39,718 bases of DNA from an uncultured Clostridia bacterium (GTDB lineage: Bacteria > Bacillota > Clostridia > Oscillospirales > Acutalibacteraceae). Below are positions 7,344 through 27,888 of the stretch, piece after piece. The notes beneath the pieces were generated by a model, which was given only the letters and a program-made list of their open reading frames with translations, ran no database searches and was not told the DNA's origin. The translations under genes were made by a program, and so were the position numbers. The stretch is from the NCBI GenBank assembly GCA_944384995.1, contig CALWVN010000017.1:1-39718 (forward strand), given 5' to 3'. The first letter of the stretch is position 1, and each line of letters begins with the position of its first letter.

Positions 7344-7368
7344 GCTTTGTGACACGATGTCATAAAGT
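7344..7368. promoter_or_regulatory. 25-bp palindrome, copy 1 (candidate parS or operator)
   Basis: Half sites GCTTTGTGACA and TGTCATAAAGT around a 3-bp centre. It lies between the pilin-like and VirB6-like genes and touches the stop codon of the former. Same motif and orientation as at 13261, 22996, 24982 and 27862. Confidence 0.75.
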
Positions 7369-7637
7369 TACCAGCCGATGATTGCCCACATGTAGACATT
7401 TGCGCCGATGCAAAGTGCAAGGCACACGCCGACGATTAGCGGCTTTACATAATCTATTTCGCCGTGATCCCTGTAATCTCGCCAACATCTAATGATTTGG
7501 ACAATCAGAACGACCAGAAGCACGGCCGAAGCAATGGGCAATACGAAATCGTTGACGACACCCATAAACTCGGATTTGATACTGTTGTCAAGAATTTGCT
7601 TCAAAGCATCGGCTATGCCGAGAGGAATATATCGCAT
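7368..7637 (-). CDS. Small two-helix membrane protein, VirB2/pilin-like (89 aa)
   Basis: Two hydrophobic helices (FVLPIASAVLLVVLIVQII and PLIVGVCLALCIGANVYMWA) joined by a polar loop, directly upstream of the VirB6-like gene. Size, topology and place match the VirB2-like/DUF3852 subunits of Gram-positive elements. The start MRYIPLG is 8 nt after AAAGGAG; an earlier GTG overlaps the ribosome binding site and was rejected. Confidence 0.65.
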   Translation of the reverse strand: MRYIPLGIADALKQILDNSIKSEFMGVVNDFVLPIASAVLLVVLIVQIIRCWRDYRDHGEIDYVKPLIVGVCLALCIGANVYMWAIIGW

Positions 7638-7650
7638 AATTAGCACTCCT

Positions 7651-8712
7651 TTACATGGTGGGGAGCATTTGGACTTCCGGCGCCTGTGCCGCAGCCATTT
7701 GCTCCCCTTGGTTGAAATTTATTAAATCGTTGATTTGTTCCGTGTATGCGGCATCGTATGCCAAGGACACGGTTTGTCCTTTTGCAAAAGCGGCGTATGA
7801 CGTGATCTCCGGCAACTGTTCCGTAAGTGCATCAAATTGTGCCTTCGGCAAATTTGTATAACCCATCGGGCGGTTTTCTGCGCGCAAAAGGGATTTCAAT
7901 TCCCTGTAACCGATGCTTTCGTCGTTGATCAGCTCCACGCTCATGTTACCGTTGGAAATCGCTGTATAATCTTTGACAAGATCATAATGGTTTTCGCGAA
8001 ACGGCACTTTTTTGAAATCACGGATCGCGCTGTGCAGAATGTGCTCGCTCGTCTGCGCATCGTGCATCAGCTCTCTTGCGGCATCAAACATTTTGGAGTC
8101 CGTTTGAAAATCCGTATTGAGCATAACAGACCAATCATATAGATTCCGAAGCTCAGCAAAATACAGCTGCCGAAGATCCCGTACATATGGGACGGCACGT
8201 GCGCGAAGCATTTGGTGATACACATCCGGGTACCTCTGCGAAAGCTCTTCTACGGTCATGGCGTATTTGTCCGAAAGCTGCTTCGCCGCTTCTAAGCTGT
8301 ACCGTTCGATATGGAAATCGAAGTTTTTGGTTGCCCGATCGCCTTGTATGCCGATTTTAGCCAGCTGCCGATTGGACGGAAAGCGGTCGAGCATATAACC
8401 CTGCTGATTTTCGGGGGCGATGCCGAACGTGTTGGCCAGAATTTGCATAGCGTCATATCGCGACGAACACGAGTGCAGAAAACGCGTCAGCTCGATCGTA
8501 TCACCGCCGTAATTTGCGTTTCCAAAATCACAAAAAGAATTGGTTTTGGTATACAGCTTGCAGGATGCCGTTTTTTCATCGCGAAGTTTGCACCAATAAT
8601 CCGATCCGACCTGTTTGAGCTCCACGCCATAGGCCTGTGCGACTTCGGCAATAGGAATGCTTTGCAGTTTTTCCGGATCATAGAAGGGTTTGGATTCAGG
8701 CGTTATCTTCAT
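7651..8712 (-). CDS. Primase-like protein with degenerate CHC2 zinc finger (353 aa)
   Basis: Residues 37-80 follow the DnaG CHC2 zinc-finger pattern: DYWCKLRDEKTASC, then NSFCDFGNANYGGDTIELTR, where C41 and C61 remain but the usual His is R44 and the last Cys is lost. The fold may persist without zinc binding. The remaining 270 residues are unrecognised and mostly helical; no TOPRIM acidic motif was seen. A role in single-strand handling after transfer is possible. Its start overlaps the end of the upstream gene by 4 bp, indicating one operon. Confidence 0.6.
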   Translation of the reverse strand: MKITPESKPFYDPEKLQSIPIAEVAQAYGVELKQVGSDYWCKLRDEKTASCKLYTKTNSFCDFGNANYGGDTIELTRFLHSCSSRYDAMQILANTFGIAPENQQGYMLDRFPSNRQLAKIGIQGDRATKNFDFHIERYSLEAAKQLSDKYAMTVEELSQRYPDVYHQMLRARAVPYVRDLRQLYFAELRNLYDWSVMLNTDFQTDSKMFDAARELMHDAQTSEHILHSAIRDFKKVPFRENHYDLVKDYTAISNGNMSVELINDESIGYRELKSLLRAENRPMGYTNLPKAQFDALTEQLPEITSYAAFAKGQTVSLAYDAAYTEQINDLINFNQGEQMAAAQAPEVQMLPTM

Positions 8713-9653
8713 CCCATAAGCACCTCCGGCGGCTGCAAAGCTGCTTCCTGTATGGCGGCATCCTGCGCCATTTCTTGCGAGAGTGCATGTTCGGAAATTT
8801 CGGCGGCGAGCAATTCAGGCGCATCGGTATGGTACACCCGCGCGCCCTGCCAGGTACCGTTATTCCCGTTGATACCGTTCATGAGCTTGATTGCCTGTCC
8901 GGGCGGACACCATGCGTGCAGATTCAGGGAATAATCATCCAGCAATGTGTCGGTAGGCTGCAGTCCGTTCGGGATTACCGTCTGCTTGGTTTCCCCATAA
9001 GCAGGAAAGAGCCTGTGTGCTGCATCAATTTGCGGAAGATGGGCATCCAGCCACTGATTCTTTTCCTGCAGCGCATACTTACTGTCCAAAACAGAGGATA
9101 AAATGTAGATCTCAAAGCGGGGATCCTGATTGAGCAGATTTACAGCATCGACCACATTTTGCTGCGGTTCAAGGGATGCAAAATAGCCCTGCTCGTATAG
9201 GTCTTCAATTTCAGCAATCGGGTTGAATTTCGCAAGCGTGCCGTCCATATCCACGAAAATACGGCGCGGCTCAATCGGCTGTGGTTCTTCAACAGGCATC
9301 TTAAGAGCGACAATTTTCCCGTCAAGGTTGATAAATTTTTCCGGCTGCCGGAACTGCTCCATATATTTCTGCATGAGGTGTTCGGGCAGGTCGGTGAAGT
9401 CTTCATCTTCGAGTCCAACGATAAAAAAGTTGCCGGAGATAATATCGACCAACTGCCCGTTGTCGTTGAAAACAGCCCGGTTCAGCGGCAAGCCGAGGAG
9501 CTTCCCTTCGTCATTGCAGACAAGCCCTACGGGTTCGGTATACGGATACACGCACTCGATCGTGCCGCCGACAGCTTTCTGCATGGGCTTCAGGTCGTTT
9601 GCAAGGTCTGTTTCATAAGGAACTTTCCCAGGTTCGACCATCAGGACTTTCAA
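8709..9653 (-). CDS. DUF3846 domain fused to HAD 5'-nucleotidase-like domain (314 aa)
   Basis: The N-terminal 100 residues (KVLMVEPGKVPYET, then GLVCNDEGKLLGLPLNRA) match the DUF3846 style of protein common in ICEs and phages. A linker leads to RRIFVDMDGTLAKFN (nucleophile D135, acid D137), the motif I of HAD phosphatases related to 5'(3')-deoxyribonucleotidases; ILSSVL may be motif II. The predicted start is TTG, 9 nt after AAAGGAGG, giving MKVLMVEPG; ATG at codon 5 is the alternative. A nucleotide-hydrolysing activity is inferred from the motif only. Confidence 0.65.
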   Translation of the reverse strand: MKVLMVEPGKVPYETDLANDLKPMQKAVGGTIECVYPYTEPVGLVCNDEGKLLGLPLNRAVFNDNGQLVDIISGNFFIVGLEDEDFTDLPEHLMQKYMEQFRQPEKFINLDGKIVALKMPVEEPQPIEPRRIFVDMDGTLAKFNPIAEIEDLYEQGYFASLEPQQNVVDAVNLLNQDPRFEIYILSSVLDSKYALQEKNQWLDAHLPQIDAAHRLFPAYGETKQTVIPNGLQPTDTLLDDYSLNLHAWCPPGQAIKLMNGINGNNGTWQGARVYHTDAPELLAAEISEHALSQEMAQDAAIQEAALQPPEVLMG

Positions 9654-9691
9654 TGCGCAATACCTCCTTTGTTTGAAAAATGGCAGAAAAA

Positions 9692-9718
9692 AGCGGCGCT
9701 GGAAAACCAAGCGCCGCC
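9692..9718 (-). terminator. Terminator after the BspA-like gene
   Basis: GC-rich stem (GCGGCGCT with AGCGCCGC) followed on the minus strand by TTTTTT. Confidence 0.8.
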
Positions 9719-9739
9719 TATATTGGGTGAGAGCGAGAG

Positions 9740-11233
9740 TCAGAGAATGACAATTCTGAACATGCTGTCAATAGTTTCATCCGGAGTGCCGTATTTGTCA
9801 ATCCATGCTTGTGCATTGTTCTCATTTACATAGAATATAACTTGGTGGTCGTGAACGCCGCCGTAAAGGGTTATGCCCAGTGATTTAGGGAAGATAGTCG
9901 AATTTGGCGTACCTAACCACGTAACACTTTCCAGATTACTGTCAAAAACTTGATCATGTGATTCCGCCGCAAACTTTTCAAAGCTTGCCGGAATGGTTAC
10001 GTTTTTTAAGGATGTACACCCCACGAACGCGCCTGTACCGATTCTCTCAATCTTTTCGCCGAGTTCAACGTTGCTTAACGAGGTGCATCCTTTGAAGCAG
10101 TTTAACGGGACAAGCGTAACTTCGCCTATTAAGGCTGCAGACTCTAACGTTTCACAATTTTCAAAAATCCCGCCAGTATCGGTGCCTCCTCTTAAATTTT
10201 CGCTTCGGACAACTACAGTTTTTAGGTTACTACAGCTCCGGAAAGCCCCCGAGTTTACAAACTGTATTGTTTCCGGGATAATAAGTGTTTCGAATCCACA
10301 GCCCTGGAAAGAGCGCATCCCAATACTATTTAATTTTTGCGGAAAGTTGATGCTTTTAAGATTGGTACACCCGGAAAACATATATTGCGGTGTTGCAGTT
10401 AAATTTTCCGGGAGGTTTACAATTTCCAAGGATGCGCAGCCAGCAAAACACATGATCTCAGCTTGAGAGATGTCATCCGTCAAATATGCACTTTCCAATG
10501 CACTACAGTTATAAAAAGCATATGCGCCGATTGATTTTACCCCGTCTTGAATTGTTGCGGATATTAAAGAGCTTTTATAGGTTTGCATTGGAGAGATTGT
10601 AGATGTTATACTCGAAGAAAAATCTGCCATCAACCCATCACTATCTTCACCATTAGCAAAGATAGTGACTTCCGTGAAGTCGTCGTTAAATTCCGCCACA
10701 ACATACTCGGGGACGGTTTTGCCGATCGCAAACAGGTGCTCGTCTGCCTCGATCTCTTCGGCGGTGTAGACCTTTTCATTGACTGAGAACGTAAAGGTCG
10801 CAGTGTCGGTATAGGCGCCTGCATACCGAGCCTTTTCATCGATTGCGGCTCCAAACGAAACCTCCACGGTATCGGACGGCTCGCCGGCTTCCTTTTGCAG
10901 AATCGTGTCGCCGGATGTGACCGCCCCATCAGCTGTGTAAAGGGTGTACGGAATCTCCACACCGTTTTTTTCTCGAAGAACGCCCGAATACTCTACTGTT
11001 GCCGAGAGTGTCGAATTGTCGGGGATTACGACATCCGTTGCAGTGATCGTATATGCGGTCACGTCCTGTTGCCCGGGCTCTGCGGCTCTGACAAAGGCAG
11101 GGATTGACGCTGTAAAGGACGCTTCCTGCGTATAGCTGATTTCAGTTTTGTCCGCTGCCAACACGGGAATAGCAGCTGTACACATCAGTATAGCTGCAAG
11201 CAGAACAGACAGGATCTTTTTTATTTTTTTCAT
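9740..11233 (-). CDS. Secreted BspA-type leucine-rich-repeat protein (497 aa)
   Basis: Signal peptide 1-26 ends in VLAADK. Residues 30-150 form a beta domain (TASIPAF, DVTAYTITATDVVIPDN, YAGAYTDTATFTFSV) also seen in the next protein upstream. From about 215 on there are BspA/TpLRR repeats of about 23 residues (VKSIGAYAFYNCSALESAYL, FAGCASLEIVNLP, FSGCTNLKSINFP, FKGCTSLSNVELG, FVGCTSLKNVTIP). Such proteins bind host or bacterial surface molecules. No LPXTG motif is present, so attachment is unknown. AGGAGG stands 12 nt before the start. Confidence 0.85.
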   Translation of the reverse strand: MKKIKKILSVLLAAILMCTAAIPVLAADKTEISYTQEASFTASIPAFVRAAEPGQQDVTAYTITATDVVIPDNSTLSATVEYSGVLREKNGVEIPYTLYTADGAVTSGDTILQKEAGEPSDTVEVSFGAAIDEKARYAGAYTDTATFTFSVNEKVYTAEEIEADEHLFAIGKTVPEYVVAEFNDDFTEVTIFANGEDSDGLMADFSSSITSTISPMQTYKSSLISATIQDGVKSIGAYAFYNCSALESAYLTDDISQAEIMCFAGCASLEIVNLPENLTATPQYMFSGCTNLKSINFPQKLNSIGMRSFQGCGFETLIIPETIQFVNSGAFRSCSNLKTVVVRSENLRGGTDTGGIFENCETLESAALIGEVTLVPLNCFKGCTSLSNVELGEKIERIGTGAFVGCTSLKNVTIPASFEKFAAESHDQVFDSNLESVTWLGTPNSTIFPKSLGITLYGGVHDHQVIFYVNENNAQAWIDKYGTPDETIDSMFRIVIL

Positions 11234-11255
11234 GGGATGATTTTACCTCCTAAGG

Positions 11256-11278: not shown

Positions 11279-11292
11279 AAAGAATCTTGCAG

Positions 11293-12831: not shown

Positions 12832-13245
12832 TCAGTCCGGCATAGCATCATCGGGCAATGCATCAAACAGGGTCGTGACAGGCTCGTCGGAGGCACGATA
12901 AAGCACATTGTTTTCCGGGATCTCTAATTGCTCCGGCAACGGCTCGCTGTCCGCCTCCGCTTTTTGTGCATACTTTTTAAGGACGGATTTGTATTCTTGC
13001 ATGATCGCTTCGTTAAGCTCACGCCGGAACTCCGATGTAATCGGATGCACAATGTCATAATACTGCCCGCCGGCACCCTTTTTGCTTTTGGCAGAAGGCA
13101 TTGCAACGAACTTACCGCCGTATACGTTCTCCATGATTTTGATACCGTGTATAGCCAGCGAATCGTCCAAAATCACACTTGCGATACCGAGCAGGTTACT
13201 GCTCTCGTCGTTGAATAACCGGTGAAATTTAATTTGGATTTTCAT
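12832..13245 (-). CDS. spoVG: SpoVG-family regulator (137 aa)
   Basis: Core segments ASVILDDSLAIHGIKIMENV, GKFVAMPSAK, YYDIVHPITSEFRRELNEAI and MQEYKSVL align with SpoVG, a small nucleic-acid-binding regulator. It is longer than chromosomal SpoVG (about 90 aa) by an acidic C-terminal tail. ICE-borne SpoVG homologues are frequent in Clostridia and probably adjust element genes. AAAGGAGG precedes the start closely, and the 25-bp palindrome copy 2 lies just upstream, so it is a likely member of that regulon. Confidence 0.85.
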   Translation of the reverse strand: MKIQIKFHRLFNDESSNLLGIASVILDDSLAIHGIKIMENVYGGKFVAMPSAKSKKGAGGQYYDIVHPITSEFRRELNEAIMQEYKSVLKKYAQKAEADSEPLPEQLEIPENNVLYRASDEPVTTLFDALPDDAMPD

Positions 13246-13260
13246 ATGGCCTCCTTTCCC

Positions 13261-13285
13261 ACTTTATGCCGTCATGTCACAAAGT
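13261..13285. promoter_or_regulatory. 25-bp palindrome, copy 2
   Basis: Half sites ACTTTATGCC and TGTCACAAAGT around the centre; the left half is the most diverged of the five copies. It is 16 bp upstream of the spoVG-like start codon, over its probable promoter or leader. Confidence 0.75.
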
Positions 13286-14042: not shown

Positions 14043-17000
14043 TTATCGCGCTCTCCTTTTCCGCTTTTGAGCAGCAATCGTGATCCACGCCGCAGAAATC
14101 AATGCCGTGGTTGCCGCAGCGGTTGCCCAGACAGCGGTATTGCCGCCGGTCTGCGGGATCTCCACGGGGATCTGCTCGTTGGTCATGGATACGCGGATCT
14201 CCGTCAGGTCGTCTGTGATCTCAAATGGATATTCTGTCTCGTCGAGTTTGTAGCCGTCCAGGGTGGAAAACTCCTGATATGTGTATTTGCCTTTCGGAAG
14301 ATTATCGAACTCGACTACGCCGTTTTTATCGGTATAGCCCTCGCGGATGATCTCGCCTTGTTCATTGCGGATGCGGAAGCCGACGCCCGGCAGGAGCTGT
14401 CCGGTGGACACGTCAGACTTTGTGATGATGAGCTTGCCTTTTGCCCAGGTGTTGACGGCTTCGATCTCAATGATCTGTTCATCCTCGGTAATGCTCACGG
14501 GGATCGGCGTATTGTCAAACAAATAGCCGGCTACTCCAGACAATTCCACGATTACAAAGTCACCGAGCGGCACGTTCAGGAAGGAGAACAGCCCATTTTC
14601 ATCGCTGGTAGAGAGCATCAGTGCCGTTTCTTCGGTGAATTCCGTGGCGTCCGCCCGGAACAAGCCAAAAACTGCGCCGGGAAGTGCATTGCCCTGTTCA
14701 TCCACCTTTTTGCCGTAGATGTCGCCGCGTTTGAGCGTGTTTTCAATCGCTTCCCCGTCATTGACGGAAATATGGACTTCCGCGATGTCCTGGCCCGCAT
14801 ACTCGAATGTTACGGGATATTGCTTGTCAGAAAGGATATAGTGGTCATCGGTGTTGTACTCTTGGATATACACTTTTGCGTCCACGGGCAGATCGGTGGC
14901 GAACGTCGCTGTCCCGTCTGCGTTCGGGGTGAGGATCTCCAGCAGCCCGTCTTTTGGGATCACGCTCCCGTCTGCTGCGATGAGATCTTCGGCAGCATAC
15001 AGCGCAAACTGAACATTGCCAATCTCACCGTTCGTGCCGATGCCGAACAATTCATCCTGCTCCAGCGCTTTCAGAAGGTCAATGACAACCTTTTGCCGCT
15101 GGTTGGTGATGGTGATCGCCGTAGATGTCACGGACACGTTCTGCCCGGCGTAGGTCAGGGTAACTTCGTAGACTTTAGGATCTAACACTTGCCCATAACC
15201 GGCTTGGATCTCCTGTACATAATATTTGCCAAGATACTGCGGTTTGGAAGAAGTCGTACCGTTGCCCATAGTAACGGTATCTACGACCGTACCCGCAGCC
15301 GCTCGCAGCGTACCGTCAGGTGTGATGATGTCCTCGGCAGCGGTGATCTCAAAGACCGCACCGACGCTGTTTGCCATCGCATAGACGGGCTGATAGAACG
15401 TCCCGTCATAGGAGACGGAAGAGAACTGCTCGCCGAGCTTGGTAATGTCGATCATGCCTTTCTGCGGCATATTAGCTTTCGTTACCAGGACAACGGTGAT
15501 TCCACCGTCGTCCTGCATGGTTTCGGGTGTGATGTCGAAGTAGACAGGCGTACTATCCAGCACAGAACCATAGGGAGCAATAACTTCTACCGCCGAATAA
15601 CCCTTGCCATAGGGCAGCGTTTGCGGTGTAATCAGCATACCGTTTGCATCCGTATAGAACGTGTCAATGGTTGTTGGCGTCGGATAGGTGAATGTCATGG
15701 TAATCAGGTTGCCCTGCGGATCATAGAGCTGTACTCCTGTTCCTGCAAGCGGAATTGTCTTGCCCGTCTCTGCGTCCTCTTTCACAAATTTGACGTAGCT
15801 CTCAAATGTCGCATTGTTGATGAGGTAGCGATATACTTCACCATGCTGGTTGATAACAACATCGAAGTCGGGGACAAACTCCGCCCCCTCATTGCCTGCG
15901 ATTTGGTGCGCTGTGTATACGCCCCAGGGCATCTGTTTTGATTGTACAAACCCATTTTCGTCGGTTACGAGCAAATCGCGTTCGCGCTCATTCGCTGCGT
16001 CGTAAGAACCGGCGGACTTCAAATAGACCTCAAATTCCGCGCCAACCTCGGGCGTCTCGATCTGCGTGCTGCCATCGTCGTTGTGCTTAATCAGGGCAAT
16101 AGAGCCAAGGATCACGTCCTCGGTTACAGACATCGAGATCGTATTATGTTCAATGGTAAAGTTGCCGGGTTCCGCGCCGACATGATGCGTAGTCTTGTCG
16201 CGCAGATAGCCTTGGGAGGGCGTGATTTCTTTCAGCGTCCAGTCGTCGCCGCAGATATATTCTTTCGTCGTGAAAGACCCGTTTTCGTCGGTCACATAGG
16301 TATCTACGAGCGTCCCGCCCTTAAACATCCCGTAAACTGCGCCGGCAAGCGTGGCGTCGCCCTGCGCAGTGCCGGTCACGCTGTCTGATTTCTTGACAGT
16401 GACGGTGAACTTCTTGAGAATGTTCTCAAACGATGCGTTGGTTACGGTGTTCCACGCAATGCTGGTGGTTTGAGCATCGGGGATCACATACTGAATACCC
16501 GTATCGACTTCCTCAAGTGTGTACCCGGAGCCGATCAGGACGTTTTCAAACGTGGCTTTGCCGGTGCTGTCCGTCACCGCATAGGCGTTGACCTCCAGCC
16601 CGCTGTCGGAAATGCCATACAAATGGAAGCGGTGACCCTCTAAAATCCCGTCCTCGGCGTCTTTGGTAACAACGACCGATCCGCGTTTGAGTGTGTTATT
16701 GAACGTGACGGTTGCGGTTTGCCCGGGCAGGACGGTCACAGTCTGTGCGGTCTGCGGGACATAATACCCGTCCACTTGTTCCGTGACTGTATATGTGCCT
16801 GCAATCAGGTTTTCCACGGTAATCGTACCGTCCGAGCCTGTGCGGACGTCTTTGTCCACCCCGTTGCCGCTGATGTGCAGCGGGACGTTCGCAATCTTCC
16901 CGTCCTCTGAGGTCTTGACGATCTTGACGTTGCCGACCGCCTCGGTTTCCAAACTGAAATATGCGTTTACGGGGTCTTTGAGATCGAGCGCGACCGCAGT

Positions 17001-17846
17001 GGTCTGATCAGAACCGACTGCATAACCGGCGGTGATGGCGGGCAGGGAGCTGACATAGGTGTTGCTTGTGCGCTCGCCGGTGACAGTAACGTTATCCAAA
17101 ATGCGGGTCGTGCTGATATTCAGCGTGTTGCCCGACCGGCTGAAGGTTACGCCGGAGCAGTTAAAGGTATACCCGGAAAGTACACTGTTGGAATCCGTCA
17201 CGCTGCCCTCATATCGCCCCGTGGAGGTGTTGTATTTCAGGGTGAGCTTTTTGTCCCCTGCGGAACTTTGAAGCCGCGTAGTAAAACTGGGAACCGTGTA
17301 ATGCGTAAGAATTTGCTCTTTGATTCGTGCATAAACCGCTTTAGCATTTGCCTTGTTCGTAGATGAAGTGCTGCCGCCAAATGCACAGTCTTGCAGCAGG
17401 CTTTCTTGTGATGTGTTGAATGCGCCGGTAACGATTGCCCAAACAATACCCTGTGTGGCAACGTATTCCGTCTGCCAGGAGTACCCGTATTTGGTAGTGC
17501 CGGCATAACCATACAGAAAAGCGGCTGTAATATATTGCTGTTCTTGGCGAGACAGCGCGTCAAAAGTCTCCCGGATAGATTTATCCCCATCTGTAAAGTG
17601 TTCATCCGGTTCAACACAGTATGCCGGGCGACCGTCCTCCGTGTGTAGCCGCTGGTGCTGCCCATGATGACCGCCCATGCCGAAATTCCCGTTCCAGTCG
17701 AAATAGAAACCGGAAATCCATTCGCTGGAGCCGCTGAGCCGAACGGTCTGTCCGACGCTCAGTGCGGAAGCCATGACCGACATGCTGGACAGCAGCGTAA
17801 GCAGTGCAAGCAATACAGCGAGGCTTCGTTTTGCTACATGTTTCAT
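14043..17846 (-). CDS. Sortase-anchored thioester/CnaB-repeat adhesin (1267 aa)
   Basis: Signal peptide 1-28. An N-terminal thioester domain is indicated by AYCVEPDEHF (C77) and YVATQGIVWAI (Q132), the Cys-Gln pair that forms an internal thioester for covalent host binding. About nine SpaA/CnaB domains follow, each ending in an E-box-like motif (YTVTEQ, YTLEEV, WTLKEI, YSAVEV, YYVQEI, VYIQEY, FVIVEL, YTYQEF; one has YTAHQI with Gln for Glu). Residues 1230-1234 are IPQTG, then a helix and KRKRRAR: a sortase signal. No sortase is in the window. It could promote adhesion to hosts or to mating partners. Confidence 0.9.
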   Translation of the reverse strand: MKHVAKRSLAVLLALLTLLSSMSVMASALSVGQTVRLSGSSEWISGFYFDWNGNFGMGGHHGQHQRLHTEDGRPAYCVEPDEHFTDGDKSIRETFDALSRQEQQYITAAFLYGYAGTTKYGYSWQTEYVATQGIVWAIVTGAFNTSQESLLQDCAFGGSTSSTNKANAKAVYARIKEQILTHYTVPSFTTRLQSSAGDKKLTLKYNTSTGRYEGSVTDSNSVLSGYTFNCSGVTFSRSGNTLNISTTRILDNVTVTGERTSNTYVSSLPAITAGYAVGSDQTTAVALDLKDPVNAYFSLETEAVGNVKIVKTSEDGKIANVPLHISGNGVDKDVRTGSDGTITVENLIAGTYTVTEQVDGYYVPQTAQTVTVLPGQTATVTFNNTLKRGSVVVTKDAEDGILEGHRFHLYGISDSGLEVNAYAVTDSTGKATFENVLIGSGYTLEEVDTGIQYVIPDAQTTSIAWNTVTNASFENILKKFTVTVKKSDSVTGTAQGDATLAGAVYGMFKGGTLVDTYVTDENGSFTTKEYICGDDWTLKEITPSQGYLRDKTTHHVGAEPGNFTIEHNTISMSVTEDVILGSIALIKHNDDGSTQIETPEVGAEFEVYLKSAGSYDAANERERDLLVTDENGFVQSKQMPWGVYTAHQIAGNEGAEFVPDFDVVINQHGEVYRYLINNATFESYVKFVKEDAETGKTIPLAGTGVQLYDPQGNLITMTFTYPTPTTIDTFYTDANGMLITPQTLPYGKGYSAVEVIAPYGSVLDSTPVYFDITPETMQDDGGITVVLVTKANMPQKGMIDITKLGEQFSSVSYDGTFYQPVYAMANSVGAVFEITAAEDIITPDGTLRAAAGTVVDTVTMGNGTTSSKPQYLGKYYVQEIQAGYGQVLDPKVYEVTLTYAGQNVSVTSTAITITNQRQKVVIDLLKALEQDELFGIGTNGEIGNVQFALYAAEDLIAADGSVIPKDGLLEILTPNADGTATFATDLPVDAKVYIQEYNTDDHYILSDKQYPVTFEYAGQDIAEVHISVNDGEAIENTLKRGDIYGKKVDEQGNALPGAVFGLFRADATEFTEETALMLSTSDENGLFSFLNVPLGDFVIVELSGVAGYLFDNTPIPVSITEDEQIIEIEAVNTWAKGKLIITKSDVSTGQLLPGVGFRIRNEQGEIIREGYTDKNGVVEFDNLPKGKYTYQEFSTLDGYKLDETEYPFEITDDLTEIRVSMTNEQIPVEIPQTGGNTAVWATAAATTALISAAWITIAAQKRKRRAR

Positions 17847-19995: not shown

Positions 19996-21126
19996 TCAAC
20001 TGCTGTCCTGTATTGCCATGCGACATTCGGCGGCGGCACGGATCGCGGCGTTGTCGTTATGCAAATAGTGCAGCGGATCCAAAATACCGCGCTCAATGAG
20101 CCGGATCGTTACCGCATCACCTTCCTGCGCAATCGCTTCCTGTTCCGCAAGTTCAATGATCACGTTGTTGTACAGCATGGATATGAGATAGCCCATACGG
20201 TTCTTGATGGGCTTGTCCGCTTTGTCGGCGGACAGATAGGCGGCATAAATGCTTTGCAGAATATCACCGTTAAGCAGATTTAGCCGTTCGCGAATCTGTG
20301 CTTGCGACACGGTGGCATCGCCAATTTTCAGCGATGGTGCGCGATACATTTTTTCCAAAGCAGCGCGCAGCAGTGGTTGCGCGGCTTCAGGCAGGCAGTC
20401 TATATCACAGTCGGCAAGCAGCTGCGCTAAACCTGCGTCCGTAGTCTCTACAATGGCAAGCGTTTGCGTAAAATCCATCTGTCCTTCAAACTGCTCTTGC
20501 GCCGTTATAGTTTTTTCAGCTGTTTCTTTATCTTCTTGATGGATAGATGGATTATTTAATATATTTATATATTTAATATCTTTCGTATTTAATTGTTCCG
20601 AGATTGGATTTCCCGATGTCGGATTATCCGATGTCGGAAAATCCAACCACGGTGAAATGTTCGGTTGCGATTTTGCCTGATTTTTCACCGATGTTGGATT
20701 TTCCAACCACGGTGAAATTCCTTGTATATCAACGTTTTTCGAGCTTTCCGCAACAGAAGCAGGCTTTTCATCTGTGGCTTCACTCGGAGTTTGTGCCGGC
20801 GCATCAGCGTCGGCTTTTTCTGTGCCAAGCTGCGGTGTTTCGTAGATTATGTACTCGATTCCGGAAAACTTTCCGCGCTCGCCGTGCCCCTGGCTGCGCA
20901 CGATATAGCCCGCCTTTTCCAGTTCCCACACGGCGGTGCGGATCGCATCGATGCTTTCCTTGTTGATCTTCGCAAGACCCTTTAGGGAGTAATCCCAATC
21001 ATCCGGCAACGACAGCATCTGTGACAACAGCCCTTTCGCTTTCAGCGACAAGGCTGCGTTTTTCAGATGATGGTTCGACATCACCGTGTAATTCTTTTGT
21101 TTCTCGATTCGAAATACGGTTGCCAT
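19996..21126 (-). CDS. DUF6017-like replication initiator with N-terminal winged helix (376 aa)
   Basis: Residues 1-100 (MATVFRIEKQKNYTVMSNHH, KAKGLLSQMLSLPDDWDYSL, AVWELEKAGYIVRSQ) form the winged-helix start of RepA_N-style/DUF6017 initiators. A low-complexity centre with NISPWLDFPTSDNPTSGNPI-type repeats separates it from a helical C-terminal part (YAAYLSADKADKPIKNRMGY). It likely starts plasmid-like replication of the excised element. Start ATG follows AAAGGATG. The repeated DNA in its middle (20613-20718) could be the origin, as in other RepA_N genes. Placed upstream of the DUF1492-like gene. Confidence 0.7.
   Translation of the reverse strand: MATVFRIEKQKNYTVMSNHHLKNAALSLKAKGLLSQMLSLPDDWDYSLKGLAKINKESIDAIRTAVWELEKAGYIVRSQGHGERGKFSGIEYIIYETPQLGTEKADADAPAQTPSEATDEKPASVAESSKNVDIQGISPWLENPTSVKNQAKSQPNISPWLDFPTSDNPTSGNPISEQLNTKDIKYINILNNPSIHQEDKETAEKTITAQEQFEGQMDFTQTLAIVETTDAGLAQLLADCDIDCLPEAAQPLLRAALEKMYRAPSLKIGDATVSQAQIRERLNLLNGDILQSIYAAYLSADKADKPIKNRMGYLISMLYNNVIIELAEQEAIAQEGDAVTIRLIERGILDPLHYLHNDNAAIRAAAECRMAIQDSS
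20613..20718. repeat. Direct repeats inside the replication gene
   Basis: CCGATGTCGGA occurs at 20613 and 20628 and as CCGATGTTGGA at 20688; TCCAACCACGGTGAAAT occurs at 20642 and 20702, 60 bp apart. CCGATGTCGG also has dyad symmetry. They encode the FPTSDNPTSGNP-like centre of the protein and may double as initiator binding sites. Confidence 0.75.
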
Positions 21127-21189
21127 TTCAACATCCTTTCCCGTAGCCGGAATAGAGCTTTTGATAGAAAAAAGGATAATAATTTTGTA

Positions 21190-21230
21190 GAAATGTGACG
21201 ATTGAACACATTTCATAAGCGTGATAGAAT
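21190..21230 (+). promoter_or_regulatory. Promoter and inverted repeat of the SLATT-like gene
   Basis: TTGAAC (21202-21207) and TAGAAT (21225-21230), 17-bp spacer. An inverted repeat GAAATGTG (21190-21197)/CACATTTC (21207-21214) overlaps the -35, suggesting a repressor site. Confidence 0.65.
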
Positions 21231-22045: not shown

Positions 22046-22276
22046 TCAGGACTCTTTCCCTATCCCGATTTCTTCTGCCGTACCACGCAGCAAGGTATCC
22101 ACCGAAACGCTGAGGGCGTTTGAAATTCTGACGAGTGTCCGTAGGCTCGGCTCATGCTTTCCGGTTTCGTAGACGCCATAATTGTTGTGTTCCATGCCGA
22201 GTTGCTTTGCAATTTGACGTTGACTTAATCTACGCACACCGCGCCAATACTTCAAATTTTCAGAAAATGCAGACAT
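22046..22276 (-). CDS. XRE-family transcriptional regulator (76 aa)
   Basis: Single helix-turn-helix domain (LSQRQIAKQLGMEHNNYGVY, then ETGKHEPSLRTLVRISNALS) filling nearly the whole protein, as in Cro-like regulators. AGGAGG precedes the ATG by 7 nt. It overlaps the end of the small upstream gene by 17 bp, so both are one transcript. Confidence 0.85.
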   Translation of the reverse strand: MSAFSENLKYWRGVRRLSQRQIAKQLGMEHNNYGVYETGKHEPSLRTLVRISNALSVSVDTLLRGTAEEIGIGKES

Positions 22277-22623: not shown

Positions 22624-24165
22624 TTAATCAAAGCCTGCAACCCACGGCTTTTTCTCGGTCAAATACGCGATAAGCGTGCTTTTTGACGCGCCGTTTGGAC
22701 GGTAGAACGAGTGTTCATGCCCGTACTCGTACTGTCCCCGAAAGTCATCGCCTTCCGGCAGCAACAGGGCATACTCGGCGACCGTGTATTCTTGATTTCT
22801 GTCGGGTATATTGGAAATGGGCGGGTGCACATAGGTTTGCGCGACGATCCGCGCACCATTTGGCAGATCGTACTTGTAAAACCGCACCCGCAGCTCGGGG
22901 ATCTCTTTCCAAATGCCCCAGCACGCATAATTCTCTAAAAATGCTTCACGCTCCTGCTTGTTACGCAGCTGCCGGAGGTTCGTGACCGGCTGCGCACTTT
23001 GTGCCACCGTGTCACAAAGTGTGGCTTCCGCGGGTGGGGCAGGTTGTTCTTTGGGCTTTTGGAAAGGATCTTGATACCGCCCGAGCTCGATCAGCTCCCC
23101 GATACGGGCGGCAACTTTTGTCCACGTTAAGCGATAGCTTTTATGCTGTGCGTAGATATATAGGCCGTCAGACTTGCCGTCGATATGTGTTTGTACTTCG
23201 GCAATCGGTCCTGTGTAGCCTTGATGCCGATAAGTGCGTAAGACGCGCTTCGTGAATTTCTGCGTAGTGTCTGTTCGGTAGTGGGCGGCAAGCGAGTCTT
23301 CATACCACGACAATAAAACCACATCTATGAAATCCGAACTGAACGGGCAGGCAGCCGCTTTCTTTTTCTCCACCTCGTTGAGAACGGCAGAAATCGTTTC
23401 GACGGTCATCCCGTTCTGTTCATTCATCTTGTAAAGCTCTGCAGCTTGCGAGAGGGTGGGAGCCTTGCCGGTTTGGCAAATGCAGTCATATAACAGTTGT
23501 TGCTGTTTTTGTGGAAGATCCGCCAGCGTCAAAGCAACTGTCATCGGCATAACGAAAATCTGTTTAGACGGATCTGCTTTAACTTTTTCGGCACTGTTGT
23601 CCACCATGGCAAGCAGCGGATCAATGAGCTTGGCTAACCGTATGTAGCGATACACTTGACGGCTGCTGACGCCCGAATCTTTTGCGATTTGGTTCGCACT
23701 CCAAGATTCGGCGGCAGCGTCGTCTGCTTTTTTGCCCTGATGTCGTAGCGCGTCCATTTCCATGGCATACGCTTTTGCCAATTCAGAAGGCGCAATATGC
23801 GAGCGGCGGCGGTTGGCTTGTACCATCCATACCGTTGCCGTATAGTCGTCCATGTCATGCTTTATGATCGCCGGGACTTCCGTTAGGCCTGCAAGTTCAG
23901 CAGCTTTACACCGGCGATGGCCCGATAAAAGCTGATAATACCCGCCCATGGCGCGCAGCGTGACCGGTTCCTGTATGCCGTGATCCTGCACACTCTCCAC
24001 AAGCTCCTGCATATCTTCGTTCATTTGGACACGGAACGGGTGATTCGGAAAGGTTTGGATCTGCGCTAACGGTACGGACACAACTAAGCCTTCGCCGACG
24101 TTCGCGCCGATCGGCGGCGTAGGAGAGGGGGCATCGGGCATTTTGAAAGTGAGCTTGTCAGCCAT
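22624..24165 (-). CDS. parB: ParB/Spo0J-family partition protein, long form (513 aa)
   Basis: N-terminal ParB core: VPLAQIQTFPNHPFRVQMNE, GIQEPVTLRAMGG, then box II LLSGHRRCKAAELAGL, a helix-turn-helix (SANQIAKDSGVSSRQVYRYI) and further helices. Typical ParB is about 280-300 aa; here some 280 extra residues (for example YTGPIAEVQTHIDGKSDGLY) form an additional C-terminal part of unknown role. It overlaps parA by 8 bp. It should bind centromere-like sites and load as a sliding clamp; one of the 25-bp palindromes lies inside this gene. Confidence 0.88.
   Translation of the reverse strand: MADKLTFKMPDAPSPTPPIGANVGEGLVVSVPLAQIQTFPNHPFRVQMNEDMQELVESVQDHGIQEPVTLRAMGGYYQLLSGHRRCKAAELAGLTEVPAIIKHDMDDYTATVWMVQANRRRSHIAPSELAKAYAMEMDALRHQGKKADDAAAESWSANQIAKDSGVSSRQVYRYIRLAKLIDPLLAMVDNSAEKVKADPSKQIFVMPMTVALTLADLPQKQQQLLYDCICQTGKAPTLSQAAELYKMNEQNGMTVETISAVLNEVEKKKAAACPFSSDFIDVVLLSWYEDSLAAHYRTDTTQKFTKRVLRTYRHQGYTGPIAEVQTHIDGKSDGLYIYAQHKSYRLTWTKVAARIGELIELGRYQDPFQKPKEQPAPPAEATLCDTVAQSAQPVTNLRQLRNKQEREAFLENYACWGIWKEIPELRVRFYKYDLPNGARIVAQTYVHPPISNIPDRNQEYTVAEYALLLPEGDDFRGQYEYGHEHSFYRPNGASKSTLIAYLTEKKPWVAGFD
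22996..23020. promoter_or_regulatory. 25-bp palindrome, copy 3, inside parB
   Basis: Half sites ACTTTGTGCCA and TGTCACAAAGT around CCG. It lies within the parB coding sequence, which argues for a parS-like rather than purely promoter function. Confidence 0.75.
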
Positions 24166-24943
24166 TACGCAAGACCTCCTCGGTTAAGCGACGGTAGGCA
24201 TCTGCGACTTTGCCCTTAGGATTAAAGGCAAATATGCTGACGCCCTTTGACGCCATTTCTTGCGCACGCACGGAATACGGGATGTATGTGTCAAACACCC
24301 GAATTTGCAGCTCGTCGCCGCACTCGTGCAGATCCTGTAAGCCGGAACGACCGAGAACCGTGCGCAGATCAAGCATCGTGATCAAGATGCCCTCAATGGT
24401 AAGGCGGGGGTTGTAGTACGCCCGAATGCTTTGGATATACTCTAAAATGCTGGTGATGCCCTCAACGGACATGGCATCCACTTTTACGGGGATCAGCACG
24501 CTGTCGGATGCCGTCAGCGCGTTGACCGGCAGCAAGTCGAGCGATGGGGAACAGTCGATCAGGATGTAATCATAGCTGTCGCGTAGCGGTTCGAGAATGG
24601 TTTTCAGCACGCATTCGCGCCCTGTCGGGACGCTGACCAAAGACAACGCCGTGTTGCGCAGCTCTTTGTTCGCGGGGATATAATCGATGCCGTCGGTATA
24701 CTTTTGCACCGTGACGCATGGGTTTCGGTCACCCAGCATGACAGCATGCATATAGTCGGACAGATAGATCTTTTCCTGCTGCTCCTCGTGGGCGAGCGCA
24801 ACGGCGGTCAAGCTGCGCTGCGGATCTGCATCCACAAGCAGCACGCGCTTCCCGGCCTTGGCAAGCCCTGCGCCGAGATTCAGCGCGGTGGTCGTTTTGC
24901 CGACACCGCCTTTTTCGTTTGCTATTGCGATGATCTTTGCCAT
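24158..24943 (-). CDS. parA: ParA/Soj partition ATPase (261 aa)
   Basis: Deviant Walker A KGGVGKTTTALNL at residue 11 onward, Walker B YDYILIDCSPSLDLLP, and the length of Soj-type ParA without an N-terminal DNA-binding domain. It uses ATP binding on the nucleoid to move or hold the replicated element together with ParB. AAAGGA precedes the start. The 25-bp palindrome copy 4 lies 39 bp upstream, over the probable promoter. Confidence 0.92.
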   Translation of the reverse strand: MAKIIAIANEKGGVGKTTTALNLGAGLAKAGKRVLLVDADPQRSLTAVALAHEEQQEKIYLSDYMHAVMLGDRNPCVTVQKYTDGIDYIPANKELRNTALSLVSVPTGRECVLKTILEPLRDSYDYILIDCSPSLDLLPVNALTASDSVLIPVKVDAMSVEGITSILEYIQSIRAYYNPRLTIEGILITMLDLRTVLGRSGLQDLHECGDELQIRVFDTYIPYSVRAQEMASKGVSIFAFNPKGKVADAYRRLTEEVLRNG

Positions 24944-24981
24944 ACTTATACGTCCTTTCTGCTCGGGAGACCCGGTATAGC

Positions 24982-25006
24982 ACTTTGTGACATGATGTCA
25001 TAAAGT
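24982..25006. promoter_or_regulatory. 25-bp palindrome, copy 4, upstream of parA
   Basis: Half sites ACTTTGTGACA and TGTCATAAAGT around TGA; it touches the stop codon of the preceding gene. Confidence 0.8.
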
Positions 25007-25275
25007 TAATTACAATCAGCATTATGGCTCTGAGGGGTGGCTTTAGATGTTTCCCACCCATGCATAGCGCCGGCAAGCATCTCTACTTCTTGCTCTTTCG
25101 TGATACCGAATTGCTGATTCAGCTTGTCGGCAAGGCTGCGGATGTCCGGGCTGCCTGCTAAGCTGACATCAATCGGACAGTATCCGCGTTCCCCTCGGCG
25201 CAGCAGTGCGAATTCGCCGGTGGTAGGGAAAACGGTGTAGCAATATTCGGGTAATTCTTGATGAACTTTATTCAT
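25006..25275 (-). CDS. Hypothetical protein (89 aa)
   Basis: Starts MNKVHQELPEYCYTVFPTTG; contains LRRGERGYCPIDVSL and ends in a polar tail. GGAG is 9 nt before the ATG. Widely placed next to ICE regulators by context, but I do not recognise a domain. It may share a transcript with the XRE gene 14 bp upstream. Confidence 0.6.
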   Translation of the reverse strand: MNKVHQELPEYCYTVFPTTGEFALLRRGERGYCPIDVSLAGSPDIRSLADKLNQQFGITKEQEVEMLAGAMHGWETSKATPQSHNADCN

Positions 25276-25289
25276 GGCTGCTGCTCCTT

Positions 25290-25526
25290 TCAAACGACAC
25301 GCATCAAATCTTCCACCGTAGTGTGCAGTGACTGCGCAATGCGGCGCAGCTCCGAGAGGTGAAAATCAGAAGGGTTATTCAGCCGATTGTACAGCGTCGC
25401 AAGGGATATGTTTGTGCGCTTGGCAAGCTGCTCTTTGGATACCGACCAAACTTCCATTTCGCGCTTGATGTTGGCAACCAAATATTTGTCCTGCTTTTGT
25501 TCTTCAGTTTGTTTTAATCTCGGCAT
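25290..25526 (-). CDS. XRE-family regulator (78 aa)
   Basis: Helix-turn-helix VSKEQLAKRTNISLATLYNR followed by LNNPSDFHLSELRRIAQSLH, a small Cro-like protein. Start ATG is preceded by GGTGA. It follows the 60-aa XRE gene on the same strand. Confidence 0.8.
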   Translation of the reverse strand: MPRLKQTEEQKQDKYLVANIKREMEVWSVSKEQLAKRTNISLATLYNRLNNPSDFHLSELRRIAQSLHTTVEDLMRVV

Positions 25527-25550
25527 AGAACATCACCCATTTAGTGTAGG

Positions 25551-25733
25551 CTAAGATAACAATTCATCAATTGTGCATTGTAAAACGCGTGAGAGTTCAA
25601 TCAAATTTTCGGTATTAGGTCTGCTTTCACCGCGCTCCCATTGTGAGATAGCCCCTTGCGTAACCCCTAATTCATTTGCAAGAGAAATTTGCGAATAATT
25701 CTTTGCTTTTCGAAGCTCTTTCAGTTTATTCAT
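25551..25733 (-). CDS. Cro-like XRE regulator (60 aa)
   Basis: Nearly pure helix-turn-helix domain (MNKLKELRKAKNYSQISLAN, then ELGVTQGAISQWERGESRPN). GAGGA lies before the ATG. It is divergent from the ImmR-like gene and reads from a promoter whose core is made of two TGCTATTATAATA repeats, so it probably forms a bistable pair with it, like Cro and CI. Confidence 0.85.
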   Translation of the reverse strand: MNKLKELRKAKNYSQISLANELGVTQGAISQWERGESRPNTENLIELSRVLQCTIDELLS

Positions 25734-25760
25734 ACGAATTCCTCATCCGTTTAATAGATT

Positions 25761-25796
25761 TGCTATTATAATAGCACTGCTATTATAATATGTCAA
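25761..25796 (-). promoter_or_regulatory. Promoter and palindromic operators of the Cro-like gene
   Basis: On the minus strand TTGACA (25791-25796) and TATTAT (25768-25773), 17-bp spacer. The 16-bp perfect palindrome TGCTATTATAATAGCA (25761-25776) covers the -10 and its partial copy TGCTATTATAATA (25778-25790) fills the spacer. Confidence 0.8.
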
Positions 25797-25825
25797 TAGT
25801 TTTTCTAATATTTCTTTACTTTTTG

Positions 25826-25855
25826 TTGAATTATATTAGTACAGCTAATATAATT
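25826..25855 (+). promoter_or_regulatory. Promoter and operator of the ImmR-like gene
   Basis: TTGAAT (25826-25831) and TATAAT (25849-25854), 17-bp spacer. The inverted repeat AATTATATTAG/CTAATATAATT (25829-25839, 25845-25855) spans the whole promoter. Confidence 0.8.
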
Positions 25856-25873
25856 GAATCGGGTGATATTATC

Positions 25874-26320
25874 ATGCGTGAAAGATTAAAAAAGCTACGC
25901 AAAGAAAACCATTTATCACAGGCTGAATTTGCAAAGCAGTTGAATGTGCATCAAACAGCTGTTAGCCAATGGGAACAGGGCAGAACGATGCCAGACATGC
26001 AAACGCTAGTTAAAATATCGCAACTGTTTTCAGTTAGCACAGATTATCTCTTGGGTAAGACTGACGAAAAAGAAATAGAAGCGCGCAATAGCGAATTGTT
26101 TTTTCTAAATGATCATGAAAAGGAATTAGTTATAGCATATAGAAACAAGAAGCCTATGCAACCAGCAGTAGACCGCTTGCTTGATCTCCCGCCTGATGAT
26201 GCGGAAACGGCTGCATACATTGCAGCAAGAGGACAGAACGCCGGGGGAGCCACCGTTCGGTTAAACAAAGAAGAAATCGAAAAATTACGTTCTGTGAAAG
26301 AGTCGGACGAGGACTTCTAA
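25874..26320 (+). CDS. ImmR-like XRE repressor (148 aa)
   Basis: N-terminal helix-turn-helix (LSQAEFAKQLNVHQTAVSQW, EQGRTMPDMQTLVKISQLFS) followed by a helical tail of about 75 residues with an acidic end. Size and the ImmA-type protease gene just downstream match ICEBs1 ImmR, which keeps the element integrated and is destroyed by ImmA after DNA damage or quorum cues. The start MRERLKK was taken over an upstream hydrophobic extension that runs through the promoter. Confidence 0.85.
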   Translation: MRERLKKLRKENHLSQAEFAKQLNVHQTAVSQWEQGRTMPDMQTLVKISQLFSVSTDYLLGKTDEKEIEARNSELFFLNDHEKELVIAYRNKKPMQPAVDRLLDLPPDDAETAAYIAARGQNAGGATVRLNKEEIEKLRSVKESDEDF

Positions 26321-26336
26321 CAAGGGATAAAAAAAT

Positions 26337-26363
26337 CCTCAAAGGACAGGCTATCCTTTGAGG
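26337..26363 (+). promoter_or_regulatory. Hairpin covering the immA ribosome binding site
   Basis: Perfect 10-bp stem CCTCAAAGGA/TCCTTTGAGG with a 7-nt loop; the 3' arm contains GAGG of the GAGGTGA ribosome binding site. There is no T-run, so translational control is likelier than termination. Confidence 0.65.
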
Positions 26364-26372
26364 TGATCCAGT

Positions 26373-26957
26373 GTGGTATATGGCAGATATAAGGGGATCA
26401 GAAATGCGGCTTGGCAAACACTGATAGACTTTCATGTCACGCAGCTGCCCGTCCATGTGATGCGCATTGCGAAGACGGCGGGAATCCGCGTTCTTAAAAA
26501 TGAACAGGCGCAGATGCTTTCCGATAACCAGTGCGGGCTTAGCATCCTCACAGATGTGCAGTGGTTTGTGATTTACGATGAAACCATGTCGGTAACGCGC
26601 AAGAGGTTTACGATCGCACATGAACTTGGCCATATTTTCCTCGGACACGCTTTGAAAGAGGGCTTTCATGCGCGACAGTTTGAAGGCGCGCACCCGGAGG
26701 ATGAGCAGGAAGCCAATATGTATGCAATTCGGCTGCTGGCGCCTGCGTGTGTATTATGGGGGTTGAATCTGCATACGCCCGAAGAAATTGCGAATGCTTG
26801 CGCGATTTCACTATCCTCCGCCCAATGGAGAGCGAAACGTATGGAAGAACTGTACCGTCGCAATAGGTTTTTGACGGCACCGTTAGAAAGAAAAGTATAC
26901 CAGCAATTTGAAAGCTTCATAACTGAGCATAAGCGGGAAGGGGATAGTGGAAAATAA
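26373..26957 (+). CDS. immA: ImmA/IrrE-family zinc metallopeptidase (194 aa)
   Basis: HELGH at residues 83-87 (FTIAHELGHIFLGH) and E113 in EDEQEANMYA are the zinc ligands and catalytic Glu of the ImmA family. In ICEBs1 and phages such proteases cleave the ImmR-type repressor to trigger excision. The GTG start follows GAGGTGA, which is held in a hairpin (26337-26363). A GTG two bases earlier is in another frame. The gene is downstream of the XRE repressor in one operon. Confidence 0.88.
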   Translation: MVYGRYKGIRNAAWQTLIDFHVTQLPVHVMRIAKTAGIRVLKNEQAQMLSDNQCGLSILTDVQWFVIYDETMSVTRKRFTIAHELGHIFLGHALKEGFHARQFEGAHPEDEQEANMYAIRLLAPACVLWGLNLHTPEEIANACAISLSSAQWRAKRMEELYRRNRFLTAPLERKVYQQFESFITEHKREGDSGK

Positions 26958-26958
26958 A

Positions 26959-26985
26959 AAAGAGCAGACCTTTCGGCTGCTCTTT
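26959..26985. terminator. Bidirectional terminator between immA and fic
   Basis: 9-bp stem AAAGAGCAG/CTGCTCTTT with a 9-nt loop and A/T runs on both sides, placed between convergent genes. Confidence 0.8.
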
Positions 26986-26996
26986 CCTATCAAAGC

Positions 26997-27800
26997 TTAC
27001 TGCATTTCCGGCAAAAAGTCGGTTAAGGGCTTGTGTTGCGGTGCTTCGCCTGACTGCGCGAGCGTCAGCGTTTTATCCCATGTCTTTTCTACTTCATATT
27101 TCAAAAACTCTTCCAGGGAATCCAACGCTTCCTGTTCGTCATATTTGTTCAGACACGCATAATACAAGCCTTTATCTTCGTCATACACAACCAGCGGCGG
27201 CTGATCGTGGATCATGAAGTAATAATTCAAAAGTGTTCTGCCTACGCGCCCATTCCCGTCGGCAAACGGGTGGATGCTTTCAAACCGCGCGTGCAGATAT
27301 GCGCCGACTCGTAAATACTGTGTGCCCTCGTATTCGTTGATCTCGTCTACAAGCTCCTGCAGATCCTCGGCGACCGTTTCTACGGGAGAGCCGACCTCGT
27401 GGATGCCGGTTACATAATCATGCTTCTTAAATTCACCGGGACGCTCACCGTTTTCCACATAGCGTCGCTCGTCATACGTCCCGCTTGTCAGGATTCTGTG
27501 GATCTCCCGAATCAGCTCCACAGAGATCGGTTCTTTGGCGATGATCTTTCCGCGCAGATAGTCATAGCAGAGCTTTTGGTTCTGTTGCTCGAACAGCGCG
27601 CGCGTCTCGCCGGTGTAACCGGTGACGCTGCCGTTCTCGAAGATCTCACGCGTGTCATGGAAGCTGACGTCTGCGTTTTCAATCTTCCCGGAGTTGTATG
27701 CGAAAATGATGCGGAAGTTACTCAAATATTTATCCAGATCGCTTTCCGTGGTAATCGAGTAAGACTGCCAAAGCGAAACGGTATCTTCATATTTACCCAT
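26997..27800 (-). CDS. Fic-family AMP transferase with N-terminal inhibitory motif (267 aa)
   Basis: The Fic motif HPFADGNGRVGR starts at H177. An inhibitory helix with S37-G-K-I-E41-N42 fits the (S/T)xxxE(G/N) motif, so this is a class II, self-inhibited Fic protein that can transfer AMP from ATP to a target protein when relieved. GGAGG precedes the MGKYED start; an upstream extension across the palindrome was rejected. No separate antitoxin gene is seen, consistent with self-inhibition. It is divergent from int. Confidence 0.88.
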   Translation of the reverse strand: MGKYEDTVSLWQSYSITTESDLDKYLSNFRIIFAYNSGKIENADVSFHDTREIFENGSVTGYTGETRALFEQQNQKLCYDYLRGKIIAKEPISVELIREIHRILTSGTYDERRYVENGERPGEFKKHDYVTGIHEVGSPVETVAEDLQELVDEINEYEGTQYLRVGAYLHARFESIHPFADGNGRVGRTLLNYYFMIHDQPPLVVYDEDKGLYYACLNKYDEQEALDSLEEFLKYEVEKTWDKTLTLAQSGEAPQHKPLTDFLPEMQ

Positions 27801-27859
27801 TGTGAGGCCTCCAATCTGAACTATAGTATACCATACTTTTTGCGATTTGCGGAAAAAAT

Positions 27860-27888
27860 TCACTTTGTGACACCGTGTCACAAAGTGA
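27860..27888. promoter_or_regulatory. Palindrome copy 5 upstream of int, extended to 29 bp
   Basis: The best copy: TCACTTTGTGACA and its exact complement around CCG. It ends directly before the int ribosome binding site (GAGGGG) and lies between the divergent fic and int genes. Confidence 0.85.

Follow-up and report, generated by a model that had tools for sequence, protein, structure and literature searches.

The window analysed here, a stretch of 39,718 nucleotides forming contig C17 (CALWVN010000017.1) of an uncultured Clostridia bacterium, carries much of an integrative and conjugative element (ICE) with a set of 25-bp palindromes that are candidate binding sites for the element's own ParB protein. 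Seven palindromes were found in all, two of them on a second contig of the same genome, C2. In ICE order, the first (C2:187470) lies 13 nt before the start codon of virD4 and the second (C2:194423) 16 nt before that of a MobP3 relaxase gene. The third (7344..7368) fills the gap between a DUF3852 gene and trbL and ends 8 nt before the GTG of trbL (6409..7335, minus strand, encoding a VirB6-like channel protein), the first gene after this site, which is followed by virB4 (3674-6133). The fourth (13261..13285) is 15 nt before the ATG of a spoVG-like gene (12832..13245, minus strand) and adjoins the Shine-Dalgarno sequence. The fifth (22996..23020) is within the 3' part of parB (22624..24165, minus strand), at about codons 382-390, and not in the linker-encoding part as in related genes. 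The sixth (24982..25006) is 38 nt before the ATG of parA (24158..24943, minus strand), predicted to encode a Walker-type ATPase of 261 aa, and the seventh (27862..27886), a perfect palindrome with 12 of 12 pairs, is 18 nt before the ATG of a tyrosine integrase gene (27905..28927, plus strand). The reading frames of parA and parB overlap at 24158-24165, and the palindromes at 22996 and 24982 are the candidate cognate sites of this gene pair. Six of the seven sites are in leaders, 8-38 nt before a start codon, and five of these six end 8-18 nt before it; the remaining one is internal to parB. On the minus strand, the palindrome before the integrase gene was also scored as a terminator-like stem, which was taken as a coincidence.

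An earlier note on this DNA had listed five copies, at 7344, 13261, 22996, 24982 and 27862. All are present at these coordinates and their gene contexts had been given correctly; the set is real but was incomplete, lacking the two copies on C2. The observation that all copies have the same orientation carries little meaning for a palindrome. A pattern search of the window with up to 3 mismatches returned 7 places, the five palindromes and two strays with 3 mismatches, against 0.37 expected, and none of 100 shuffles reached 7 matches. The own genome was scanned as 1.89 Mb in 22 contigs (86% complete). The 23-base core had six exact matches there, five in the window and one at C2:187471 (site 1); one mismatch added C2:194424 (site 2) and a single host place, C13:38304, and two mismatches gave 41 places against 33 in the reversed control, which is no excess. 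A tighter 25-mer with at most one mismatch was found at exactly 7 places, with none in the control. The statement that no copy lies outside the ICE thus holds for the core at 0 mismatches and fails at 1 mismatch by one host match, and the many host copies that had been named as the refuting case were not seen. An origin of the copies as a mobile repeat, of the repetitive extragenic palindrome (REP) or miniature inverted-repeat transposable element (MITE) kind, was ruled out because the similarity between copies stops at about 27 bp. Hairpin-like stretches were seen by eye ahead of the relaxase, virD4 and spoVG sites; the scanner scored only the one at the relaxase, on the other strand.

All seven palindromes very probably belong to one ICE of about 39 kb. 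A 20-bp tandem repeat at the start of the window (1..77) also ends C2, and the end of C2 encodes a VirD4 protein that passes the CD1115 family model and the MobP3-family relaxase. In relatives with the same backbone these genes were found beside genes of the window (virD4 in 12 of 14; the relaxase gene, virB4 and trbL in all 14). Because the tandem repeat is common to both contigs and the relatives carry both gene sets together, C2 and C17 very probably hold a single element. An attachment-site (att)-like repeat, consisting of the 3' end of a tRNA-Leu(GAG) gene and a terminator, is located at 29055..29122 and recurs at C2:184689-184770 (88%) and C2:175779-175846 (97%). Measured to the nearer repeat the ICE would be about 38.9 kb long, without any unassembled gap, and to the farther and more similar one about 48 kb. 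All seven palindromes are inside the ICE whichever repeat is taken as its end, and they are spread from 7% to 97% of its length. With three successive copies of the tRNA-Leu 3' end, a further stretch of about 9 kb is delimited, adjoining or inside the ICE; it encodes an RHS-repeat protein and gave no match to the ICE proteins of the window.

The proposed reader of the sites, the 513-aa ICE ParB, has the features expected of a member of the ParB/Spo0J family, namely a predicted ParB_N domain (PF02195, E 6.2e-16; TIGR00180 above cut-off) followed by a helix-turn-helix (HTH) region, the Pfam match of which is below its cut-off. Alignments showed that the G-x-RR motif and a conserved Asn are kept. 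The Asn aligns with that of the ENLQR motif of Spo0J, and we take it to be the equivalent of an Asn of KorB, the ParB-type protein of plasmid RK2. Among solved structures, the N domain matched Spo0J (1vz0, E 8.9e-17) and Noc (7ng0, E 1.3e-12) best. Compared with nine longer ParBs, the C-terminal 233 residues gave no significant match (best E 0.7), and an AlphaFold2 model built from the single sequence, with no alignment, was uninformative (predicted local distance difference test score, pLDDT, 34.5).

The relation between protein and palindrome was examined in the 40 best-scoring non-self ParB relatives, drawn from a search that gave a match in 363 of 394 genomes of the order; 39 are from other genomes and one is a second parB of the own genome, on contig C6. 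All 40 parB genes contain a 25-bp palindrome, in frame and at one aligned place, which maps by alignment to the linker between the CTPase domain and the HTH. Complementary pairs number 12 of 12 in 18 of these palindromes, 11 in 12 and 10 in 10, with a mean of 11.2 of 12 compared to 5.56 under synonymous-codon shuffling, a null that keeps the position fixed, the observed stretch being the best in-frame one within about codons 111-217. The two arms vary jointly and the peptide follows (TSRQVGEKL, TSAQVGPKL, TSVQVEQKL). The ends ACTT...AAGT are exact in 34 of the 40, C10-G16 in 37, A11-T15 in 27 and the full shape ACTT-N5-CA-N3-TG-N5-AAGT in 21; all seven sites of the ICE fit this shape with at most one mismatch. 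In the own genome the shape occurs at 6 places (5 ICE sites and the second parB on C6) and in the reversed control at none, the shape having been composed after both the relatives and the own sites had been seen and the second parB being one of the 40. For 41 ParBs, the partial correlation of site distance with HTH distance, given N-domain distance, is 0.48 (p 0.0005), and that with N-domain distance, given the HTH, is small (0.07, p 0.19). The linker palindrome of the second, distinct parB (C6:92971; L125:8971-8995), ACTTCTCGCCAAGTTGGCGAGAAGT, is unlike the ICE set, and this genome may therefore have two ParB specificities side by side.

Elements of the same backbone were compared for the presence of sites and of ParB. 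Sites are present in both backbone elements with ParB (the own ICE and X280) and in none of the 14 without it; this contrast is not a random sample, since X280 was found through its ParB. The 14 site-free relatives were drawn from 20 non-own TrbL places, six of which were left out as short or weak (G592, G476, G340 twice, G414 and G227). They are stretches of 20-60 kb, not all of them complete, and absence of ParB means that no ParB_N is in the stretch; for G092 and G537 a ParB_N is present farther off on the same contig. A palindrome scan of the site-free stretches returned only AT-rich families in E145 and one weak match each in E595b and E593. Among the 29 ICE proteins tested, parB is the sole one detected in X280 while missing from all 14 site-free relatives (Fisher p 0.008). 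The parA gene was found in X280 and in 1 of the 14, and the spoVG-like gene, the larger XRE protein and a 95-aa protein had the opposite pattern to parB, being not found in X280 and found among the site-free relatives. The palindromes of X280 are three in number and identical to one another; two precede parA and the third is inside parB. Close relatives sought with the ICE ParB in genome contigs and viral contigs were not found, and among the 570 records obtained from plasmids there was none that covered 80% of the query.

The shape itself is more widely distributed. Of 394 genomes of the order, 116 contain it, with a maximum of 16 places (G387) and 0 to 2 per genome in the control. The motif of the own type, with one mismatch allowed, matched in 41 of the 394, the own genome having 7 places (control 1) and the others at most 2; among the matches listed for other genomes all have one mismatch, and reversed-control matches were at least as common there. 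The tighter 25-mer was found in two other genomes out of 398 of the family, at one place each, with control matches in a handful. A further group of elements was chosen for inspection, eight for their longer ParBs, Y387 and Y008 also for many shape matches, and Y227 for its sites alone. Y387 and Y008, the backbone of which differs from that of the own ICE, have 15 and 12 sites over 40 kb around the ParB gene. In both, sites precede a SpoVG gene and a DUF3801 gene ahead of virD4, and since sites precede them in all three elements, spoVG and the coupling-protein unit are common to the own ICE and these two. Further sites precede Maff2, CD1107-like and DUF7007 genes in Y387 and PrgI and DUF6674 genes in Y008, where one more precedes a kdpA-like gene and another the gene for a protein that by eye is nearly identical to Maff2. 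Outside ParB, a palindrome of Y387 (L186:12592-12616) is in the coding frame of an ICE protein of about 657 aa (peptide TSGQVGPKS). Smaller numbers were counted in Y173 (4), Y184 (3), Y293 (5, one of which looks stray), Y330 (2) and Y352 (2). At a looser threshold, 7 of 9 ParB-bearing elements of this group have a site that begins 2-9 nt away from where the parB stop codon starts. Four stretches of viral contigs have one palindrome each of the Y387/Y008 type, two of them with a ParB match.

On these data the palindromes are probably the operator and centromere (parS-like) set of the ICE's own ParB, to which we assign a probability of roughly 0.7. The comparisons suggest ParB as the best candidate reader: the earlier proposal that it binds the sites now has strong comparative support in the co-occurrence of sites and ParB, the palindromes within parB and the co-divergence of site and HTH, from which we infer direct binding.

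Several observations weigh against this assignment. The own ParB has a gap where the relatives have their linker site, and the own sites are on average 10.8 mismatches of 25 away from the family, compared to 8.6 among its members. The correlation with the HTH may come in part from the physical linkage of site and HTH codons. In 39 of the 40 relatives the parB site is the single one within the fetched flanks (up to 10 kb on either side), and five of these 39, extended to 60-100 kb (X270, X329, X082, X227 and X209), also have one site each, so dispersed sites are not the rule. The transfer genes of X280 have no preceding site, and promoter scans found few or no consensus promoters at most of the leaders scanned. 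An in-frame linker site, scored at the looser threshold, is present in 6 of the 9 further, longer ParBs and missing from 3; Y310 has a ParB and no site in 24 kb, and Y301 one weak site. Conversely, Y227 has 10 sites, two flanking a relaxase gene and one preceding a CD1107-like gene (L203, 13608-18740), and no ParB_N gene in the 40 kb fetched. Other parts of its genome contain 12 ParB_N matches, among them one on this contig that goes with a different site and one on a separate contig that goes with a site matching in part; the sites of Y227 may be recognised in trans or by a different protein.

Control of transfer through scattered ParB operators has precedents in RK2 KorB and NAH7 ParB, and ICEclc provides one for an activator with a ParB domain. 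KorB of the IncP plasmid RK2 has a ParB fold, acts as a cytidine triphosphate (CTP) clamp and silences replication and transfer genes from scattered operators (PMC11790492). The ICE set, known here from sequence, is like it in pairing a ParB-type protein with scattered sites, and multiple sites heading transfer and maintenance genes, the KorB-type trait, were found at the six own leaders and at leaders of Y387 and Y008. The systems differ in that RK2 is a Gram-negative plasmid with a 16-bp OB site and a co-repressor, KorA, whereas the ICE sites are of 25 bp; no KorA-like family was found among the 20 window proteins scanned with Pfam, small open reading frames being outside that scan. The ICE ParB matches the KorB structure 8qa8 at E 2.7e-4, well below the Spo0J match; the analogy with KorB drawn earlier concerns function, and the similarity in sequence is weak. 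The IncP-9 plasmid NAH7 has six inverted repeats distributed along its backbone, of which one precedes a mating-pair gene; binding of ParB to one inverted repeat and its control of transfer genes are described (PMC12421886). The ICE resembles NAH7 in having inverted repeats across the backbone, one of them heading a mating-pair gene, and differs from this Pseudomonas plasmid, in which the site is the 18-bp TTTCTCGCATGCGAGAAA, the effect is activation and, in the available part of PMC12421886, integrase control is not described. BisDC of ICEclc is a parallel from another ICE, in which a protein with a ParB domain controls several promoters, that of int included (PMC7423338), as is proposed here for the ICE ParB; it differs in needing BisC, and the words 'palindrom' and 'binding site' are missing from the available text of that source.

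Among chromosomal relatives, parS of Spo0J is a 16-bp site, and the sequences of Spo0J parS and of the Noc-binding site (NBS) differ from the ICE palindrome. The NBS is likewise of 16 bp, compared to 25 bp in the ICE. Y387 matches the DNA of CD1110/CD1115-type ICEs, which we take to be of the Tn1549 type, at about 65% over part of its length, and the own VirD4 passes the CD1115 model. In 20 kb of pMG2200, the gene table of which is incomplete, there is no such palindrome and no annotated ParB. In searches of the open-access literature no report was recognised of this 25-bp operator family or of a site in the parB linker, which is weak evidence of absence.

In the proposed mechanism, ParB dimers would recognise the 25-bp site through the HTH and probably load there as CTP-driven clamps. 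Such a clamp is likely, because ParB_N, G-x-RR and the Asn are present and the Asn of KorB is needed for CTP hydrolysis (PMC11790492). The points of action of ParB would be the starts of the relaxase, VirD4, TrbL-VirB4, SpoVG, parAB and integrase units. These units, the spoVG-like and integrase genes among the proposed targets, would most likely be held down, either by a block of transcription or by sliding clamps that reach and occlude the start regions, as the position of sites beside Shine-Dalgarno sequences suggests, and would be released together. The site in the parA leader would give autoregulation, that in the int leader would tie integration and excision to the level of ParB, and these sites may also serve, together with ParA, to partition the ICE once it is excised. 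The positions of the sites agree with the coupling proposed earlier, in which partition would be tied to the control of both integration and transfer.

ParB could instead bind the same sites and activate the transfer genes. NAH7 ParB raises transcription downstream of parS copies (PMC12421886) and BisDC, with its ParB-domain subunit, activates ICEclc promoters (PMC7423338), and one site of X280 was read by eye just upstream of a TTGACA/TATAAT-like promoter. In the own ICE, by contrast, the five leader sites that end 8-18 nt before the start codon are probably downstream of the transcription start; a block therefore suits them better, and activation is regarded as unlikely. Still less likely is that the seven copies are pure centromere or coating sites, serving coverage and partition of the ICE with no control of genes. 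Their spread over almost the whole element, the adjacent parA and the lone parB site seen within 10 kb in nearly all relatives would agree with such a role, but six of the seven own sites are directly before start codons, and spoVG and genes of the VirD4 unit carry sites in a different backbone too.

Binding by another ICE-encoded regulator (an XRE protein, SpoVG or the 95-aa protein) appears very improbable. All candidates are within the element, with one XRE-type gene at 22046-22276 and three more in the interval from parA to int, but most have homologues in site-free relatives: the xre genes at 25790-26320 in 4 of 14, at 25551-25733 in 2 and at 22046-22276 in 2, spoVG in 11 and the 95-aa protein in 2. 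The 78-aa HTH protein (25290-25526), found in none of the 14, is left standing by this absence test. None of these proteins, the 78-aa one included, was found in site-bearing X280, and the palindromes within 40 of 40 parB genes would be left unexplained. The XRE proteins, which the earlier note had named as alternative readers, consequently fare worse than ParB (0 of 4 detected in X280; 3 of 4 with homologues in site-free relatives). Equally hard to credit is an action in RNA, by hairpins just before the Shine-Dalgarno sequence that control translation: the position of five of the six leader sites would suit it, but the innermost pair (12/14), impossible with a one-base loop, is complementary in 6 of 7 own sites (T-A, C-G) and is A-T in 37 of 40 relatives, where it hardly varies, and sites are also found inside parB and other genes.

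More broadly, the clade of the ICE ParB, of which the literature searched gave no description, may have a 25-bp operator and centromere family that lies mostly in the parB linker before the HTH, with protein and site changing together, and that has spread in some elements to the leaders of transfer units, ParB being a master switch of at least two ICE backbones; to this wider proposal we give about even odds. If true, one protein may control both the keeping and the spreading of an ICE, the regulon of such ICEs could be listed from sequence alone through one operator family, cross-talk between elements could be predicted from that family, and the balance between partition and horizontal transfer would become directly testable. 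With a site inside the gene of its own reader, the two arms varying jointly and the peptide following, a DNA site would, unusually, have shaped a protein sequence, and the evolution of ParB specificity could be studied by a direct route.

Some other features of the element were recorded. The three XRE/HTH-type genes between parA and int (25290-26320) have divergent promoter-like sites and perhaps form a separate switch. Short imperfect repeats (CCGATGTCGGA...) at 20613-20718, within an HTH_36 gene (19996-21216), are possibly iteron-like. The ICE also encodes a 1267-aa SpaA-repeat/thioester-domain protein (14043-17846), homologues of which are present in 8 of the 14 backbone relatives.

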